Part shown: positions 7,559 through 23,473 of the stretch, piece by piece
Position numbering within the stretch: the stretch's first letter is position 1
Layout: each line of letters starts with the position of its first letter
Source of the DNA: a virus
Length of the DNA: 23,473 nt
IMG/VR virus record: IMGVR_UViG_3300027779_000164
Span: 1-23,473 of that record
Reading direction: 5' to 3' (one strand)
The notes under the pieces: model-generated
Told to the model about the DNA's origin: nothing
What the model saw: only the letters and a program-made list of their open reading frames with translations
The model's database searches: none
Program-made: the position numbers and the translations under genes

Positions 7559-10063
7559 TTAATAAACTATTATCGACCCCACTGATCCCGCTACGGCGAA
7601 CTCCGAGGGGTAACTACCCGTGCTTAAGCAAACTAATTTGACAAAATCATTATTATGAGAACTTTCTATATACCCTCCCGAACCCGCCACGGTTTCCATA
7701 TACCCAAATATAATTTTCTGCTCGGCGTTCTGAGCCACTCTCCATCCTCCTAAGGTTTTTCCTACGACCTCTATTCGTCCGTTCGAAGAATTTCCCGTGG
7801 GTAACGTAAGAATTAATCGATCGTTCGCGGAACTATTATTTACTACATACCCCACGTTAGAAATCATTTGGGTATCTGAAACGACAGTTTGGTAAGCTAA
7901 ACCACCGGGGCCCTGCGGTCCCGATGCACCCTGTGATCCTTGATCGCCAACATTTCCTATGGGCCCTACGGGTCCATCTGCCCCACGGACTCCCCCAAGC
8001 GCGTGAGCGGAAAAGAACGTGTCGTACGAGGCGCCCTCTAGCGTATGTACTCCAGATTCGCTAAGATACAATTGACCGAAATATACTTCACCCGTCGCGA
8101 CAACATTAGTAATTACAGAGGTGTCTAAAGTGGGTGTTGTCCATGCGCTAGAGCTCGATTCAGAAGGATGACCGAAATTCATAACCTTCTCGGAAAGTAT
8201 CTGATTTGAAGACGAGGCAGATTGCCCGCCATGAGTCATTCTTAATGAAAGATGTGCGTATTCCCCGGAATCAATATAGTTGTTAACTCTTGTGCTCGCT
8301 TTAATTAAATACTTACCCGGAACACTCGGTTTCCAAAGCCCGCTATCTAAATAACCGGCAGACCAATCATTTTGAGTATCAAACCCGGCGGTGTAATCTG
8401 TACCAACGTAATTATCGACACTGTAATCTTGTAAAATTATATTTGTCGCTCCGCTAATGGAGTAATCTACCTGCCCGCTACGATAAGCAAAAAATCCAGC
8501 GCCCGTTGTGTACCCCACTACGCCCTGAAGTCCTTGGGGTCCTTGCGGGCCCGTGCTCCCCACGAAGTCCGAGCCTGAGGGCCCAGTTAACCCCGTTGGT
8601 CCCAATAACCCTTGAGGTCCTTGAGGTCCTTGCGTGCCATCGCTCCCAACAAATGCTAAGCCAGATAATCCTGATGGGCCCTGAGGCCCCTGAGGCCCCG
8701 CGTCTCCCTGTGCTCCTATGGCTCCTGATATTCCCGTAACACCCTGAGGGCCTATAAGCCCTATTGGCCCCGGGGGGCCACCTAATATATGAGCGCCGAA
8801 ATAAGATTTAGAAAAGCCGCCCTTTACATAAAGACTACTTGAGTCGCTTGGGTTAATATCTACCTTTAGAATATCCCCAGAGTATAGATCAGCAAAAGTA
8901 GAGATAGTTGAAATTCTGTCAGTAGTGGTGTAAAACGCATCTAAGTCCCGAAGATAATCTTGGCTAAGAATTGTTGTGGTTGCCCCTCGGGTCCTTTCGA
9001 GAGAAATAGTTGGGTTGTAATTATAGTCATAGCTCCCCGGCGCACTATCTGTTGTAACCTGAGAATGGACCAAGTAAGTTCCCGATATATCTGGGCTAAA
9101 TGAATAAGTGCTTACGTCATAATCATTTTTTGAATCAAAACTTTCTGTTTCAAATTGAATAGTGGTTTTTACGTTAGTAGGTATCGTCTGATCGGCGGAT
9201 TTGTACGCCAAGAATCCTCCGCCGCTAATTATACCCGCTGGCCCCTGAGGCCCACTAGCTGGGCCCTGAGGCCCCTGATCACCCTGAGGCCCCTGAGGAC
9301 CAATTAATCCTACGCCAGTTGCGCCAGAAGGCCCGACTATGCCCGTGACTCCCTGCGGTCCCTGAATGCCTTGGGGTCCCAGAGGGCCAGTTATACCCGT
9401 GGCTCCACTTGGACCAACAATCCCCTGAGGCCCAAGTGCCCCGACTAAACCCTGTGTGCCCTGAGGCCCTGTTATGCCCGTGGCTCCACTTGGACCGACA
9501 ATTCCTTGGGGCCCCTGCGGGCCCTGAGGGCCGTAAGAAGCGCCCTGAGGCCCCGTCGTCCCCTGAGCACCCTGAGGACCTATAGAGCCTAAATCTCCAG
9601 CTCTAGAAAAAGAAACAACGACTGAGTCGTTATCAAGAAAGACTCCAGAAGCAGCATGGTTTGTTTGGGGGGAGCTGGAGTATACAAATTGAGAAGGAAT
9701 AGAGTAGTATTCGCTCGTTGCGTTAGTTACTCCTGTGTGGCCTACTACGCTTCCCGTTATATCGAACAAAGCAAAATCTAGCGCATTTCCAGAATCATAA
9801 AATCTAAGAGAACCTTTTACGGAAGACGAGGAGTCATCGAGACCAGAAATCCATGCTTCATGATTAACGGACCCTAGACCAGTTCTATGGACATAGACGT
9901 TAGAGACGTTAGCTAAGCCGCTTTCGAAAAACGAAAAACGTCCTATGTTGGGGTCCGTGGAGGCGCCCGTCTCATGATTATATGAGTAGATAGTTATGTT
10001 TCCACCGGGCGCACCTTTTGGGCCGGTATCTCCAAGAAACGTTGTGAATGAACTATTAGGCAT
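7559..10063 (-). CDS. Collagen-like tail fibre with two C1q/TNF-like domains
   Basis: An 834-residue protein. Residues about 20-155 are a beta-rich domain found before collagen repeats in phage fibres (YSYNHETG, SNVYVH, AWISGLDDSSSSVKGSLRF, VSFSRAGD); a diverged copy is in the 695-residue gene. Gly-X-Y collagen repeats, mostly GPQ, occupy about 159-278, 430-515 and 690-720. Between them, about 281-428 has the strand pattern of a C1q-like jelly roll: GGGFLAYKSADQT, a FSPDISGTYLVHSQ strand, a FADLYSGDILKV strand and SKSYFGAHIL at the end. Residues about 521-690 are a more diverged copy (GAGFFAYRSG to FFSAHALGG). The C-terminal 110 residues are an unrecognised beta-rich tip. Collagen repeats trimerise fibre shafts and C1q domains are trimeric heads, so a trimeric receptor-binding fibre is likely. 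The gene lies 14 bases after the 301-residue gene. Confidence 0.87.
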   Translation of the reverse strand: MPNSSFTTFLGDTGPKGAPGGNITIYSYNHETGASTDPNIGRFSFFESGLANVSNVYVHRTGLGSVNHEAWISGLDDSSSSVKGSLRFYDSGNALDFALFDITGSVVGHTGVTNATSEYYSIPSQFVYSSSPQTNHAASGVFLDNDSVVVSFSRAGDLGSIGPQGAQGTTGPQGASYGPQGPQGPQGIVGPSGATGITGPQGTQGLVGALGPQGIVGPSGATGITGPLGPQGIQGPQGVTGIVGPSGATGVGLIGPQGPQGDQGPQGPASGPQGPAGIISGGGFLAYKSADQTIPTNVKTTIQFETESFDSKNDYDVSTYSFSPDISGTYLVHSQVTTDSAPGSYDYNYNPTISLERTRGATTTILSQDYLRDLDAFYTTTDRISTISTFADLYSGDILKVDINPSDSSSLYVKGGFSKSYFGAHILGGPPGPIGLIGPQGVTGISGAIGAQGDAGPQGPQGPSGLSGLAFVGSDGTQGPQGPQGLLGPTGLTGPSGSDFVGSTGPQGPQGLQGVVGYTTGAGFFAYRSGQVDYSISGATNIILQDYSVDNYVGTDYTAGFDTQNDWSAGYLDSGLWKPSVPGKYLIKASTRVNNYIDSGEYAHLSLRMTHGGQSASSSNQILSEKVMNFGHPSESSSSAWTTPTLDTSVITNVVATGEVYFGQLYLSESGVHTLEGASYDTFFSAHALGGVRGADGPVGPIGNVGDQGSQGASGPQGPGGLAYQTVVSDTQMISNVGYVVNNSSANDRLILTLPTGNSSNGRIEVVGKTLGGWRVAQNAEQKIIFGYMETVAGSGGYIESSHNNDFVKLVCLSTGSYPSEFAVAGSVGSIIVY

Positions 10064-20642: not shown

Positions 20643-21080
20643 TCATTTTAGGAATCTTAATTTATATTTTGAATTTTCAAGATCTTTTTTCATATTACAA
20701 AGTAGTTCTTCCCCTTTACGTATATTACGTATAGCTATGAACTCATTAATTTCAACATCATAAAAAACGTTCGGCGCTAGAGAGTGATTTATATAACTAC
20801 AAAGATGATGATAGTTCCATGCATAATCTGGTAAATACATTCCAGTATCAGTAATAAGATTATAATCATACAAAAGTTGTTTTATTTCTTCTGGCAATTT
20901 TTTTATCTGCAAATGCGTAAAAAAATGAATAGCTCCGATCATAGGGTCTTGTCTACCGAAGATGGACGAGTGGGCTTTGAGTTCTCTTATGGCGAACAGG
21001 CCAACGCCATGGACATCAGAACATTTAACTCTACAATTACAATATTCATTTAGACCTTTTATTATTTCTTTTTTAGTCAT
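20643..21080 (-). CDS. SET-domain protein, catalytic tyrosine apparently missing
   Basis: A 145-residue stand-alone SET domain. N-terminal signature: VHGVGLFAIRELKAHSSIF (residues about 23-41). Core signature: YINHSLAPNV (Asn98-His99-Ser100 ... Pro103-Asn104), the NHSxxPN part of the pseudoknot. This is followed by IAIRNIRKGEELL. In active SET lysine methyltransferases the last motif reads GEELxxxY. Here it reads GEELLCNM, with Met at the position of the catalytic Tyr, and no post-SET cysteines follow. SAM-binding elements seem present, but activity is doubtful or altered. Stand-alone SET proteins are known from viruses and bacteria. The substrate here is unknown. The gene begins 3 bases after the glycosyltransferase stop, in one operon. 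Confidence 0.82.
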   Translation of the reverse strand: MTKKEIIKGLNEYCNCRVKCSDVHGVGLFAIRELKAHSSIFGRQDPMIGAIHFFTHLQIKKLPEEIKQLLYDYNLITDTGMYLPDYAWNYHHLCSYINHSLAPNVFYDVEINEFIAIRNIRKGEELLCNMKKDLENSKYKLRFLK

Positions 21081-21083
21081 AGA

Positions 21084-21767
21084 TTAAGTTATAGTTAATC
21101 TAGATAAATCCCCTTCGTAAGTCTTGCTTCCTATGTGACCTAATTTCAACCAAGGGCAAAGTTTAATTTTAAAACCCATTCTAAGCGCGTTTTCCATAAA
21201 GAATACATCTTCGCCAAGATAAACCCCATCAGATTCTCTAATTCCATAATCAAACCAGCGAAAGCTCTTATCTCCCTCAGCGTTACTACACTCAAGATGC
21301 GGGTAAGAATCTCGATAATTTTCAAATACCGCGCGTTTTATCATCGAGAACCCTGTGCCAGCATGTTTTACGTCAAGTAATTTAGTTAAATCTAGTTTTT
21401 CACCATCGCTCAACTCAAAATTATACTTACTTTCTTTTTGTTTCAGCATGACGGGCGCTGTTATAATATCTTCATCGAATAGAGCAAGGGTTAATACATC
21501 GAGCGCTTTAAATCTAGTATCTGAATCAATAAATATCAAATGAGTGAAATCTGTTTTTAGAAAATTATTTACAATCATATTCCGCGCAGCAGCTAACATA
21601 GAGCTATTGTAGATGTATAAAAAAGTTATCGGTATCTTGAGGTCGAAACAAGCTCCAGAAAGCTCGCTACAGCCCATAGCATACTCCCCATGGCATTTTC
21701 CCTCGTACATAGGGGTTCCGACGGCTATTTTTCTTTTTTGCAATTGTGCGAGCTCTTCTGGGTCCAT
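21084..21767 (-). CDS. GT-A fold glycosyltransferase-like protein
   Basis: A 227-residue protein with a GT-A Rossmann-like start (KIAVGTPMYEG, residues 13-23), a helix with the SMLAAARNMIVNNFL pattern, and the DxD motif IDSDTRF (Asp81, Asp83). Later residues (AGTGFSMIKR, YLGEDVFFMENALRMG, KLGHIG) match the acceptor-side GED and terminal His features of phage-encoded glycosyltransferase-like proteins. It probably uses a nucleotide sugar and a divalent metal; the acceptor is unknown. It is the first gene of the leftward group ending at 19034. The ATG has a weak GAAAGA upstream, and the AT-rich region 21768-21880 should hold the promoter. Confidence 0.82.
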   Translation of the reverse strand: MDPEELAQLQKRKIAVGTPMYEGKCHGEYAMGCSELSGACFDLKIPITFLYIYNSSMLAAARNMIVNNFLKTDFTHLIFIDSDTRFKALDVLTLALFDEDIITAPVMLKQKESKYNFELSDGEKLDLTKLLDVKHAGTGFSMIKRAVFENYRDSYPHLECSNAEGDKSFRWFDYGIRESDGVYLGEDVFFMENALRMGFKIKLCPWLKLGHIGSKTYEGDLSRLTIT

Positions 21768-21875
21768 TCTTTCATATATTAGCTACTTTATATGACAAGC
21801 ACTATTTTAAGTTTATACCCCGGGGATATTATGACCCTAATGAAATATAGATAGTTGAATATATTAAAAGATTTT
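21768..21875 (-). promoter_or_regulatory. AT-rich upstream region of the glycosyltransferase-SET-PhoH operon
   Basis: About 108 bases without an ORF, lying between a terminator-like hairpin and the start of the leftward operon, so a promoter is expected. Several TATA-rich hexamers are present on the minus strand, along with a TTGTCA (5 of 6 to the -35 consensus). None is correctly spaced (the nearest gap is 11 bases), so I make no exact call. An 8-bp palindrome CCCCGGGG is at 21818-21825. Confidence 0.35.
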
Positions 21876-21911
21876 AAAAAGCCTCGGGGAGACTCGTGAC
21901 GACATCCCCCC
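21876..21911 (-). terminator. Terminator-like hairpin after the small-ORF cluster
   Basis: On the minus strand GGGGGGA (21911-21905) pairs with TCTCCCC (21892-21886) with one G-U pair. The loop can form a further TCG/CGA pairing. The stem is followed by five bases and then TTTTT (21880-21876). The offset U-tract makes it an imperfect intrinsic terminator, but it is in the right place to end the 52-residue gene transcript before the next operon. Confidence 0.45.
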
Positions 21912-21957
21912 TGCGATTATTGAGAACAAGTCGCAATAAGTTTTGTTAAAGGTGCCC

Positions 21958-22116
21958 CTACCACCAGCGTCCATTTATCCACGCTGGGCCGGACGGGAGT
22001 TCGAGCTTTTTCAGCTTTCGGTCGATGTCGGCCTTGATTTGCCTTGCTTGACTCTCGACTTCGCGAGGAGGAGTCACCATTTTTACGAAAGTAGCTTTTT
22101 GAGGTTGTTCTTCCAT
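21958..22116 (-). CDS. Hypothetical 52-residue protein
   Basis: A short frame from ATG 22116, one base after the stop of the 56-residue gene. The product is charged: a Lys/Glu-rich helical middle (ESQARQIKADIDRKLKKLEL) followed by an aromatic end (PAWINGRWW). It has no cysteines or membrane segment. The spacing and shared orientation with the neighbouring small frames suggest a phage small-gene cluster. I do not recognise a family. The TAG stop at 21958 is followed by the terminator-like hairpin. The call rests on tight packing and a plausible amino-acid composition; the frame is short enough that chance is possible. Confidence 0.5.
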   Translation of the reverse strand: MEEQPQKATFVKMVTPPREVESQARQIKADIDRKLKKLELPSGPAWINGRWW

Positions 22117-22117
22117 C

Positions 22118-22288
22118 TTAATTTGAAAAATGTTGAGTTAAGGATTTGCGTAGGGTTGAGGTCAACCCCTGTTGGATGAGTACGAATTTTGCATATCCAC
22201 AAGATTTTTTCTTGAGTTCTGGCAAGAGCGAGGTCATCGCTGCTCTAACGGCTTTATCGGTCACGATAATTGTTTCTGTGTTTGTCAT
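22118..22288 (-). CDS. Hypothetical 56-residue protein
   Basis: A short frame from ATG 22288. The product is mildly basic, with a helical pattern (TDKAVRAAMTSLLPELKKK) and one Cys. No family is recognised. There is no Shine-Dalgarno; the sequence upstream is TATATAGATAGATT. The gene is followed after one base by the 52-residue frame. The antisense frame on the plus strand over the same bases looks hydrophobic. I prefer the minus-strand frame because it follows the orientation and tight spacing of its neighbours. Confidence 0.5.
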   Translation of the reverse strand: MTNTETIIVTDKAVRAAMTSLLPELKKKSCGYAKFVLIQQGLTSTLRKSLTQHFSN

Positions 22289-22539
22289 AATCTATCTATA
22301 TAGCAGCAGGTTTCGTGCCAACTTTAAAATTGTGCCACTTACAAACGTATCTTGCGTTCTGATGTTTCCTCACCGTTTGCAGAGGTGGCGTCGTGGTACT
22401 CAGCCCCACAACTGGCCTTGCTCTGTGCTTTCGGCTCTTAAAATGCCACACTGAGCAGTAAAAAATACGGTGGTCACCTCGCTGGATGACTGATTCTCTT
22501 TGTTAATTTTACATCTTAACCTTTCTCGCTTTCGTTACT
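22289..22539 (-). other. Non-coding stretch upstream of the 56-residue gene
   Basis: No convincing frame exists here on either strand. It holds three TGGCA-type boxes on the minus strand, two of which (TGGCAC) are 17 bases apart, one sigma-54-like promoter match, a CACC/GGTG hairpin near 22371-22387 and a GGTGGTCACC near-palindrome around 22470. With the adjacent repeat and structured spacer it forms about 495 bases without a gene (22289-22783). An untranslated leader or a small RNA are both possible. Confidence 0.4.
22305..22321 (-). promoter_or_regulatory. Sigma-54-like promoter match
   Basis: The minus strand reads TTGGCACGAAACCTGCT, one mismatch from the sigma-54 consensus TTGGCACG-N4-TTGCT, with the required ten bases between GG and GC. 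Transcription would begin only a few bases before ATG 22288, giving almost no leader, so function is doubtful. Confidence 0.3.
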
Positions 22540-22653
22540 ATAATATACCACACAAATGTCCTTCGCGCAAGGGCTAGGCGAAAATAAATCGGTCAGAATA
22601 ACCCTGTTTTTGTGGGCTCAAACGATGGTCTTGAAAATAGTTCAAGTGGTGGG
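22540..22653. repeat. 114-bp perfect direct repeat, copy 1
   Basis: Identical over 114 bases to 23360-23473, offset exactly 820 bases. It contains a 17-base palindrome (CTTGAA-AATAG-TTCAAG, 22630-22646), a promoter-like sequence on the minus strand (22542-22570) and no ORF. The flanks diverge at 22539 on the left. The right boundary cannot be fixed because the other copy reaches the window end. Confidence 0.97.
22542..22570 (-). promoter_or_regulatory. Promoter-like sequence in repeat copy 1
   Basis: On the minus strand TTGCGC (22570-22565), a 17-base spacer and TATATT (22547-22542) preceded by TGG, an extended -10. The -10 matches 5 of 6; the -35 only 3 of 6. It faces the region leading to the 56- and 52-residue genes. 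Confidence 0.5.
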
Positions 22654-22747
22654 ACAGCGTGTGTCCTACTTGCGGCTGGCCGGCAGCGCGCTGGGCGCAA
22701 CTACTATGTAAATTGAGAGCGGGGTTGCCGCCATCAGCGGGCAACCC
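22652..22747. other. GC-rich structured spacer with several hairpins
   Basis: In 96 bases I see a GGACA/TGTCC hairpin (22652-22666), a perfect CAGCGCGCTG palindrome (22684-22693), and an 8-bp GGGTTGCC/GGCAACCC stem with a 10-base loop (22722-22747). There is no ORF. For minus-strand transcripts it follows the 63-residue gene, so it may serve as a terminator without U-tract, a processing site or a structured RNA. GC content is clearly higher than in the neighbouring genes. Confidence 0.5.
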
Positions 22748-22783
22748 TTTACCACCGCCACGGGGGCGACAGGCTCAAATAAT

Positions 22784-22975
22784 TTAATTCTCCAAAGCAT
22801 CATCGACGGCTTCTGCAAATTCTTCATCATCAAATAACATTTCGTTGCAATGCATCATATCCTGCACAGCTTCCTCGCTCATGTACTTAACGCAAGCCAT
22901 AATAACTTGGTCTTTATCATACAAGCCATCTTCAATGCGCTCCAGTAGTAGGTTCGTGTATTCTCTTGTTTTCAT
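22784..22975 (-). CDS. Hypothetical acidic 63-residue phage-type protein
   Basis: The product is acidic and helical: MKTREYTNLLLERIEDGLYD, then a helix with two Cys/His pairs (IMACVKYMSEEAVQDMMHCN), then an acidic tail. I take ATG 22975 rather than the TTG at 22993: GGAAG lies about ten bases before the ATG, and the longer version would overlap the upstream stop. Proteins of this build (TREYT start, K-D-x-V-I-M-A-C-V-K-Y-M-S middle) are, to my recollection, common small unknowns of marine phages; I cannot verify this. It is the last of three small co-oriented genes behind the promoter in repeat copy 2. Confidence 0.72.
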   Translation of the reverse strand: MKTREYTNLLLERIEDGLYDKDQVIMACVKYMSEEAVQDMMHCNEMLFDDEEFAEAVDDALEN

Positions 22976-22980
22976 AATCT

Positions 22981-23148
22981 TTACTTCCAGCAATCGGTTT
23001 CGTCAATTTCGTAGTTCCACGCGTTTTGGTCGTGGTCGCGGTAATCGTGGCCGAAGCAATCATTACGAACACCCGTAAAGGTTTCATCTTCGTTACTGAG
23101 TAAGCCCTTGACGGTTAGCTCGTTCGTGTTTTCGTTTTTGTTTTTCAT
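22981..23148 (-). CDS. Hypothetical 55-residue protein
   Basis: A short clean frame from ATG 23148 to TAA 22981, between two other small frames with 5- and 7-base gaps. The product is very acidic and Asn-rich, starting MKNKNENTNELTVKG and ending with an aromatic, Asp-rich part (HDYRDHDQNAWNYEIDETDC). It has two Cys and no membrane segment. No family is recognised. The tight, regular packing with its neighbours is the main support. No obvious Shine-Dalgarno precedes the ATG. Confidence 0.6.
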   Translation of the reverse strand: MKNKNENTNELTVKGLLSNEDETFTGVRNDCFGHDYRDHDQNAWNYEIDETDCWK

Positions 23149-23155
23149 ATCTGTT

Positions 23156-23356
23156 TTAATTCAGGCCCTTTTGCATCACCCTTTTGCACTCATCATAATA
23201 CCCGCAAGCCTCTTTGAAACGGTTAACGTCAAAGCGTGGGTTATCTGCTTTGAACTTGTCGGAGGCAAGCAGCACCAAGCCCAGCGGTGGTGTGCCACCG
23301 ATGGCGGCTGCTAGGAGGGCTGCGGTAAACTCGAAGTCTTTCTTTGTTGCTTTCAT
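23156..23356 (-). CDS. Hypothetical 66-residue phage-type protein
   Basis: The product starts MKATKKDFEFTAALLAAAIG and ends with a helix containing NPRFDVNRFKEACGY. This NPRFDxxRFxxAC end is, to my recollection, typical of small unknowns in environmental phages (not verified). A GTG at 23371 would add five residues (VVYYY) and has AAGGA seven bases upstream, a good Shine-Dalgarno. ATG 23356 has none, but it would suit a leaderless message from the promoter in repeat copy 2. I list the ATG form and regard the choice as open. First gene of the three-gene small cluster. Confidence 0.68.
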   Translation of the reverse strand: MKATKKDFEFTAALLAAAIGGTPPLGLVLLASDKFKADNPRFDVNRFKEACGYYDECKRVMQKGLN

Positions 23357-23359
23357 ATA

Positions 23360-23473
23360 ATAATATACCACACAAATGTCCTTCGCGCAAGGGCTAGGCG
23401 AAAATAAATCGGTCAGAATAACCCTGTTTTTGTGGGCTCAAACGATGGTCTTGAAAATAGTTCAAGTGGTGGG
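23360..23473. repeat. 114-bp perfect direct repeat, copy 2 (at window end)
   Basis: Identical to 22540-22653. The window stops inside or exactly at the end of this copy, so the true repeat may be longer. It contains the same palindrome (23450-23466) and minus-strand promoter-like sequence. Ending within a repeat is what an assembler produces when it cannot resolve a repeated sequence. Confidence 0.97.
23362..23390 (-). promoter_or_regulatory. Promoter-like sequence in repeat copy 2
   Basis: Same boxes as in copy 1: TTGCGC (23390-23385), 17-base spacer, TATATT (23367-23362) with an extended -10 TGG. It directly precedes the three small genes 22784-23356. The predicted start point falls at or next to ATG 23356, implying a leaderless transcript if both calls are right. 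Confidence 0.5.

Follow-up and report, generated by a model that had tools for sequence, protein, structure and literature searches.

What does a sequence of 114 nt, repeated without a mismatch among the small genes at one end of a viral genome, do there, and is it truly present twice? The sequence, here called E1, lies in the window, a complete viral record of 23,473 bp, which was analysed by computation on its sequence. Minus-strand ORFs of the window encode a terminase, an ERCC4 nuclease, a sigma factor, PhoH and a SET-domain protein (the last at 20643-21080, adjoining PhoH), together with what we take, from our reading of the ORFs on that strand, to be collagen-like and LamG-like tail proteins; the right end is a run of small ORFs. 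The terminase matches the Pfam T4-type N-terminal model, and its best matches in the phage collection, mostly to Bacillus phages, reach about 25% identity. The closest relatives outside the window's own population are G003 and G004, with a terminase at 86%.

The two copies are identical at 114 of 114 positions, as the first-pass annotation had described them; their starts are 820 nt apart, with a gap of 706 nt between them:

22540 to 22653, minus strand: putative promoter cassette E1, copy 1; matches copy 2 at 114/114 positions, with homology to relatives extending to 22669
23360 to 23473, minus strand: putative promoter cassette E1, copy 2, reaching the record's final base, 23473

No other exact repeat of at least 32 nt occurs in the window, and the longest non-coding exact repeats in related records reach at most 44 nt, which excludes a chance origin of the identity. 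Because copy 2 stops at the last base of the record, 114 nt is a lower bound on the length of the repeat. Homology in relatives runs past it to 22669, so copy 1 looks complete and copy 2 looks like the last 114 nt of such an element. At the other side, the identity stops 2 nt beyond a -10 hexamer. The elements inside and around E1 are the following:

22542 to 22570, minus strand: predicted promoter of copy 1, TTGCGC-N17-TATATT with extended -10 (TGTGG); -35 at 22570-22565, -10 at 22547-22542
23362 to 23390, minus strand: predicted promoter of copy 2, TTGCGC-N17-TATATT with extended -10 (TGTGG); -35 at 23390-23385, -10 at 23367-23362
22594 to 22622, minus strand: conserved core TTTGAGCCCACAAAAACAGGGTTATTCTG of copy 1; G006 and G014 match its first 26 nt exactly, and the 20-nt core is shared by L123 and G018 as well
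23414 to 23442, minus strand: conserved core of copy 2, the same as that of copy 1
22630 to 22646 (copy 1) and 23450 to 23466 (copy 2), no strand assigned: CTTGAA/TTCAAG palindrome
22652 to 22668, minus strand: stem-loop GGACA-N-TGTCC at the upstream edge of E1, kept with changes in G006, L123 and G018
22668 to 22702, minus strand: inverted repeat AGTTGC...GCAAGT upstream of copy 1, resembling one ahead of the G003 and G004 cassettes described below

The proposal that each copy holds a minus-strand, extended -10 promoter-like sequence with 17-bp spacing is thus borne out by both sequences. Transcription from copy 1 is predicted to start at about 22535, while the -10 of copy 2 sits 5 nt ahead of the ATG of the first small gene (gene A), a leaderless arrangement. 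The palindrome fared less well: it is present in both copies as CTTGAACTATTTTCAAG (22646-22630 and 23466-23450), but in an alignment of E1 it is not conserved in G006, L123 or G018, and we rejected it as a conserved operator.

How widespread is E1? It aligns in G006 (79% over 103 nt), in G018 (78% over 134 nt), in G014, which is near-identical to G006 around E1, and in L123, each relative genome carrying a single copy. Its best-conserved stretch, TTTGAGCCCACAAAAACAGGGTTATT, is present in a single copy in each of G006 (117 kb) and G014 (142 kb), and with up to 3 mismatches it was not found elsewhere among 15 related records; the expectation that this particular element would recur in many copies found no support in the relatives searched. 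The 20-nt core pattern matches five contigs of the viral collection, namely G006, G014, G018, L123 and L124, and in L124 the remainder of E1 does not align. In that contig, which is otherwise unlike the window, the core is immediately followed by half of a tRNA-like sequence (about 8080-8170, minus strand). The same core was also tried as a guide to the host; its three matches in bacterial genomes are coding sequence that, in our own reading, resembles a Clp-type ATPase motif (NNPVFVG), and were set aside as coincidence.

The conservation of E1 bears on what kind of signal it is. Conservation is stronger in the core upstream of the -35 than in the -35, as might be expected if E1 were a replication or packaging signal that contains a -10 by chance and is no promoter module. 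Yet in G006, G018 and L123 a distance of 4-6 nt separates the end of E1 from the ATG of a small gene, with the 17-nt spacing between -35 and -10 kept, and we regard such a signal as very improbable. The gene placed behind E1 differs among G006/G014, G018 and L123.

E1 has company. The window, G006 and parts of G017-G020 were scanned with a looser pattern, a TTGACA-like -35, a 17-nt spacer, a -10 and an ATG 3-10 nt behind, which returned 38 promoters. Of these, 37 share the strand of the array, 34 retain the extended -10 G and 33 the preceding T, and the usual gap between -10 and ATG is 6 nt. A stricter scan of five whole records yielded 37 cassettes (15 in G017, 8 in G018, 4 in G019, 5 in G020 and 5 in G006) as against 0-2 per record in shuffled sequence; each record's cassettes lie on one strand, and the gap is again usually 6 nt (23 of 32 outside G006). 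ORFs of at least 40 aa open at 33 of the 37 cassette ATGs, compared with 27% of random ATGs. Nearly all on one strand, the cassettes occupy the small-gene region upstream of the terminase with their ATG at a near-constant distance, and often have GTTATTNACA or its complement upstream, plus a TTGGCA/TGCCAA inverted repeat. Transcription normally starts about 7 nt behind the -10; with an ATG usually 6 nt behind it, we infer that these mRNAs are leaderless. As far as sequence goes, E1 appears to belong to a family of modular cassettes, each with a sigma70-type extended -10 promoter, a usually leaderless ATG and stem-loops nearby, that resembles the PeSL cassettes discussed below.

But what about the closest relatives? 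In G003 and G004, both fragments, the stricter scan found no sigma70-type cassette. Instead, the motif TTGGCAYRN4YTGCT occurs 16 times in G003 and 12 times in G004, always forward, with none for the reversed pattern used as a control. The motifs follow one another in a row (L094 2464-10098 in G003, L095 919-4929 in G004), each shortly before a small ORF, and 25 of the 28 following ATGs open ORFs of at least 40 aa. The window has one such element:

22305 to 22321, minus strand: putative sigma54-like cassette TTGGCACGAAACCTGCT, lying ahead of the ORF that starts at 22288; the only one in the window

The 28 cassettes and the one in the window are like sigma54 (RpoN) -24/-12 promoters in having TTGGCAC-N5-YTGCT with GG-N10-GC spacing, and we call them sigma54-like promoters on that resemblance. 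The sigma54 activator domain PF00158 was absent from 10 related viral records, which are fragments and whose host may supply one; the control was positive in 14 of 14 genomes. It would be surprising for a phage to have 12-16 sigma54-like promoters in succession. The arrays in relatives, of 4-15 sigma70-type or 12-16 sigma54-like cassettes, lend support to the earlier suggestion of a modular control system with one promoter cassette per small-gene set.

The first-pass annotation also held that each copy faces a run of tiny genes. This is so for copy 2, which faces genes A, B and C, but copy 1 faces non-coding DNA with a conserved RNA domain, about 250 nt of it before the ORF at 22288. The small genes and one further element are:

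23156 to 23356, minus strand: gene A, 66 aa; homologues in G017, G018 and G019, each behind a different cassette
22981 to 23148, minus strand: gene B, 55 aa; homologous DNA in G018, G019 (twice) and G020
22784 to 22975, minus strand: gene C, 63 aa; 92% amino acid identity in G019, two copies in G020
22709 to 22778, minus strand: stem-loop element in the non-coding DNA behind gene C; G020 has it at 97% identity over 70 nt, strong predicted hairpin
22118 to 22288, minus strand: gene D, 56 aa; an ORF with its own putative sigma54-like cassette at 22321-22305
21958 to 22116, minus strand: gene F, 52 aa; an ORF

In G017-G020, genes A, B and C and two non-coding elements turn up again, arranged differently in order, number and orientation and placed behind other cassettes. 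The order is B, A in G018; two B (in opposite orientation), A, C in G019; and C, B, C, A in G020, while G017 has A. Of the non-coding elements, 22709-22778 has a 97% match in G020 and 22325-22395 a 91% match. Shuffling of gene modules in this region may be caused by the cassettes.

What, then, lies behind copy 1? The predicted product is an RNA:

22325 to 22534, minus strand: predicted non-coding transcript from copy 1, about 210 nt, with no leaderless ORF and a conserved RNA domain inside
22390 to 22412, minus strand: predicted 5' hairpin GUUGUGG...CCACGAC; its position matches GUUCGUGAG...CUCACGGAC in G018 and L154 and GUUCGUGAG...CUCACGAAU in G020
22334 to 22389, minus strand: conserved RNA domain (model R1) with a GCCAC/GUGGC stem, a UGCRRACG/CGUYYGUA stem and a 26-nt loop

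The two-stem domain is matched in G020, G018 and L154, where it stands behind a -10 of the same type, and its loop is conserved in three of the four sequences. A copy 1-type -10 followed by ATAGTA is found in G017 (twice), G018 and L154. We had considered that the start behind copy 1 was a gene start decayed from ATG to ACG, and dropped this reading because the RNA domain and the ATAGTA start type are found in relatives. Model R1 matches the window and the three relatives with E-values of 3e-14 to 3e-20; as all four are training sequences, these values show no independent member. All 13 pairs are kept in the four sequences and two are compensatory, with changes on both sides, a count reached by 29 of 500 shuffles, so that covariation support for the domain is modest. 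The whole 217-nt stretch folds no better than shuffles (z -0.69), the conserved part being the 3' domain only. R1 had no further member in the other records searched, Rfam held no matching family at E up to 5 (matches near the window were at chance level), and the phage and plasmid collections gave no match for the RNA sequences tried. A match to the RNA pattern in L152 reads as coding sequence and was discarded as coincidence. What comes after the domain is a tRNA in G020 and small ORFs in G018 and L154; it may accordingly form an RNA of its own or act as a leader.

Taken together, the repeat is probably the E1 class of interchangeable phage promoter cassettes, duplicated in this genome, with copy 2 directed at A-B-C and copy 1 at a non-coding RNA. 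Each copy would provide an extended -10 promoter of the sigma70 type whose -35 is weak, and the conserved stretch of about 80 bp upstream probably binds an activator or RNA polymerase. From copy 2 would come a leaderless mRNA for genes A-B-C, and from copy 1 a non-coding RNA of about 210 nt with the two-stem domain, perhaps with readthrough into D and F. Since the cassettes are alike in sequence and sited between genes, homologous recombination between them could duplicate, swap or delete the flanking blocks of small genes, and may be the source of the second E1.

Are both copies real? An assembler might have closed a loop, or joined two cassettes through shared promoter sequence, where the genome has one E1. 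Copy 2 runs to the very end of the record, relatives carry one E1, and among 93 pieces only one other, L112, ends in a self-repeat, a 127-nt overlap of both its ends; moreover, no relative has E1 driving the RNA, and copy 1 might result from a misjoin. Against an artefact, the repeat of 114 nt does not have the length of the L112 overlap (127 nt), and where a circular k-mer overlap would repeat both ends, only one end is repeated, at an internal place. The identity ends at a functional boundary, just behind the -10, and gene A has a cassette at the corresponding place in three relatives. Contigs in this group can also end in internal repeats, as the G020 record ends 110 nt inside repeated coding sequence. 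We consider an artefact unlikely, if worth weighing. In G020 itself (L148/L149), the repeat is a 110-nt exact internal one in repetitive coding sequence, at 113175-113284 and 115977-116086, with the record ending exactly inside it.

Two genotypes with E1 in different places might also have been merged into one contig. Related contigs do differ nearby: L004, from the window's own population, is 100% identical over 21788-22464 and lacks 21100-21787. It stops at 22464, short of E1, and a second genotype covering E1 was not found; we think such a merger quite improbable. Recent duplication and gene conversion were weighed against an assembly artefact as the origin of the second copy. With the identity ending 2 nt past the -10 and the G020 record also ending in an internal repeat, duplication is favoured, and it is likely that the genome holds two true copies of E1. 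The stretch in which L004 differs bears a 227-aa ORF in the window (21084-21767; weak Anp1 match, phrog_1574), replaced by about 180 nt in that near-identical contig (L004 677-858).

Finally, we would like to place these cassettes among known systems. Arbiol 2010 and Comeau 2014, both cited in PMC4503421, reportedly described cassettes of T4-type phages named PeSL (promoter early stem-loop). In these an early-type promoter and a stem-loop lie between genes, repeated across a hypervariable region of small genes, and recombination between them has been proposed to duplicate, swap and delete gene blocks. The likenesses are several. Gene blocks are reordered among relatives, as A, B and C are in G017-G020; the promoter stands immediately upstream of the gene, with an ATG 4-10 nt behind the -35/-10 in the 37 cassettes of five relatives and in copy 2; and copies are many in a hypervariable region, although the E1 class itself is single-copy in relatives. 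The inverted repeats upstream of copy 1 (22652-22668 and 22668-22702) and of many G003 and G004 cassettes may be counterparts of the stem-loop, as candidate terminators in which no U-tract came to light. Unlike PeSL cassettes, the present system has leaderless ATG spacing and several promoter classes, one of them sigma54-like, one cassette type would drive a structured RNA, and a T4-type lineage of the phage would be tentative, with terminase matches of about 25% identity in the phage collection. By analogy, the system would work like PeSL cassettes. Such arrays exist outside T4-type phages: in the haloarchaeal virus HGTV-1, most ORFs of one genome arm are preceded by a promoter-like motif with an inverted repeat (PMC3950731). 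The array of promoter-like motifs before ORFs is shared, but the HGTV-1 motif is of the archaeal TATA type, whereas here it is a bacterial -35/-10 or GG-N10-GC (PMC3950731).

More tentatively, these phages may use a plug-in form of regulation, in which small genes with leaderless starts and a new structured RNA family are driven by interchangeable cassettes, of the sigma70 type in some phages and of the sigma54 type in their close relatives, one class serving both an mRNA and an RNA gene. If true, this would carry the PeSL idea to phages outside the T4 type. It would also mean that related phages use different kinds of promoter at one genomic position, and the structured RNA that such a cassette carries would be an added family.

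Structured RNAs among small genes are familiar in phages from manA RNA and from tRNA and tmRNA genes (Rfam), which the RNA behind copy 1 resembles in its setting and differs from in matching no Rfam family at E up to 5. Two more non-coding stretches stand behind TATATTATAGTAGTT promoters in G017 (L135, about 3073 and 7356, minus strand), one of which has the GTTCGTGAGGGT 5' hairpin in common; neither gave an Rfam match above the gathering score. In G006, a manA RNA motif exceeds that score (L092 4519-4697), and G020 carries a tmRNA with a tag reading frame (L145 10829-11256), with tRNA-Trp and tRNA-Thr nearby.
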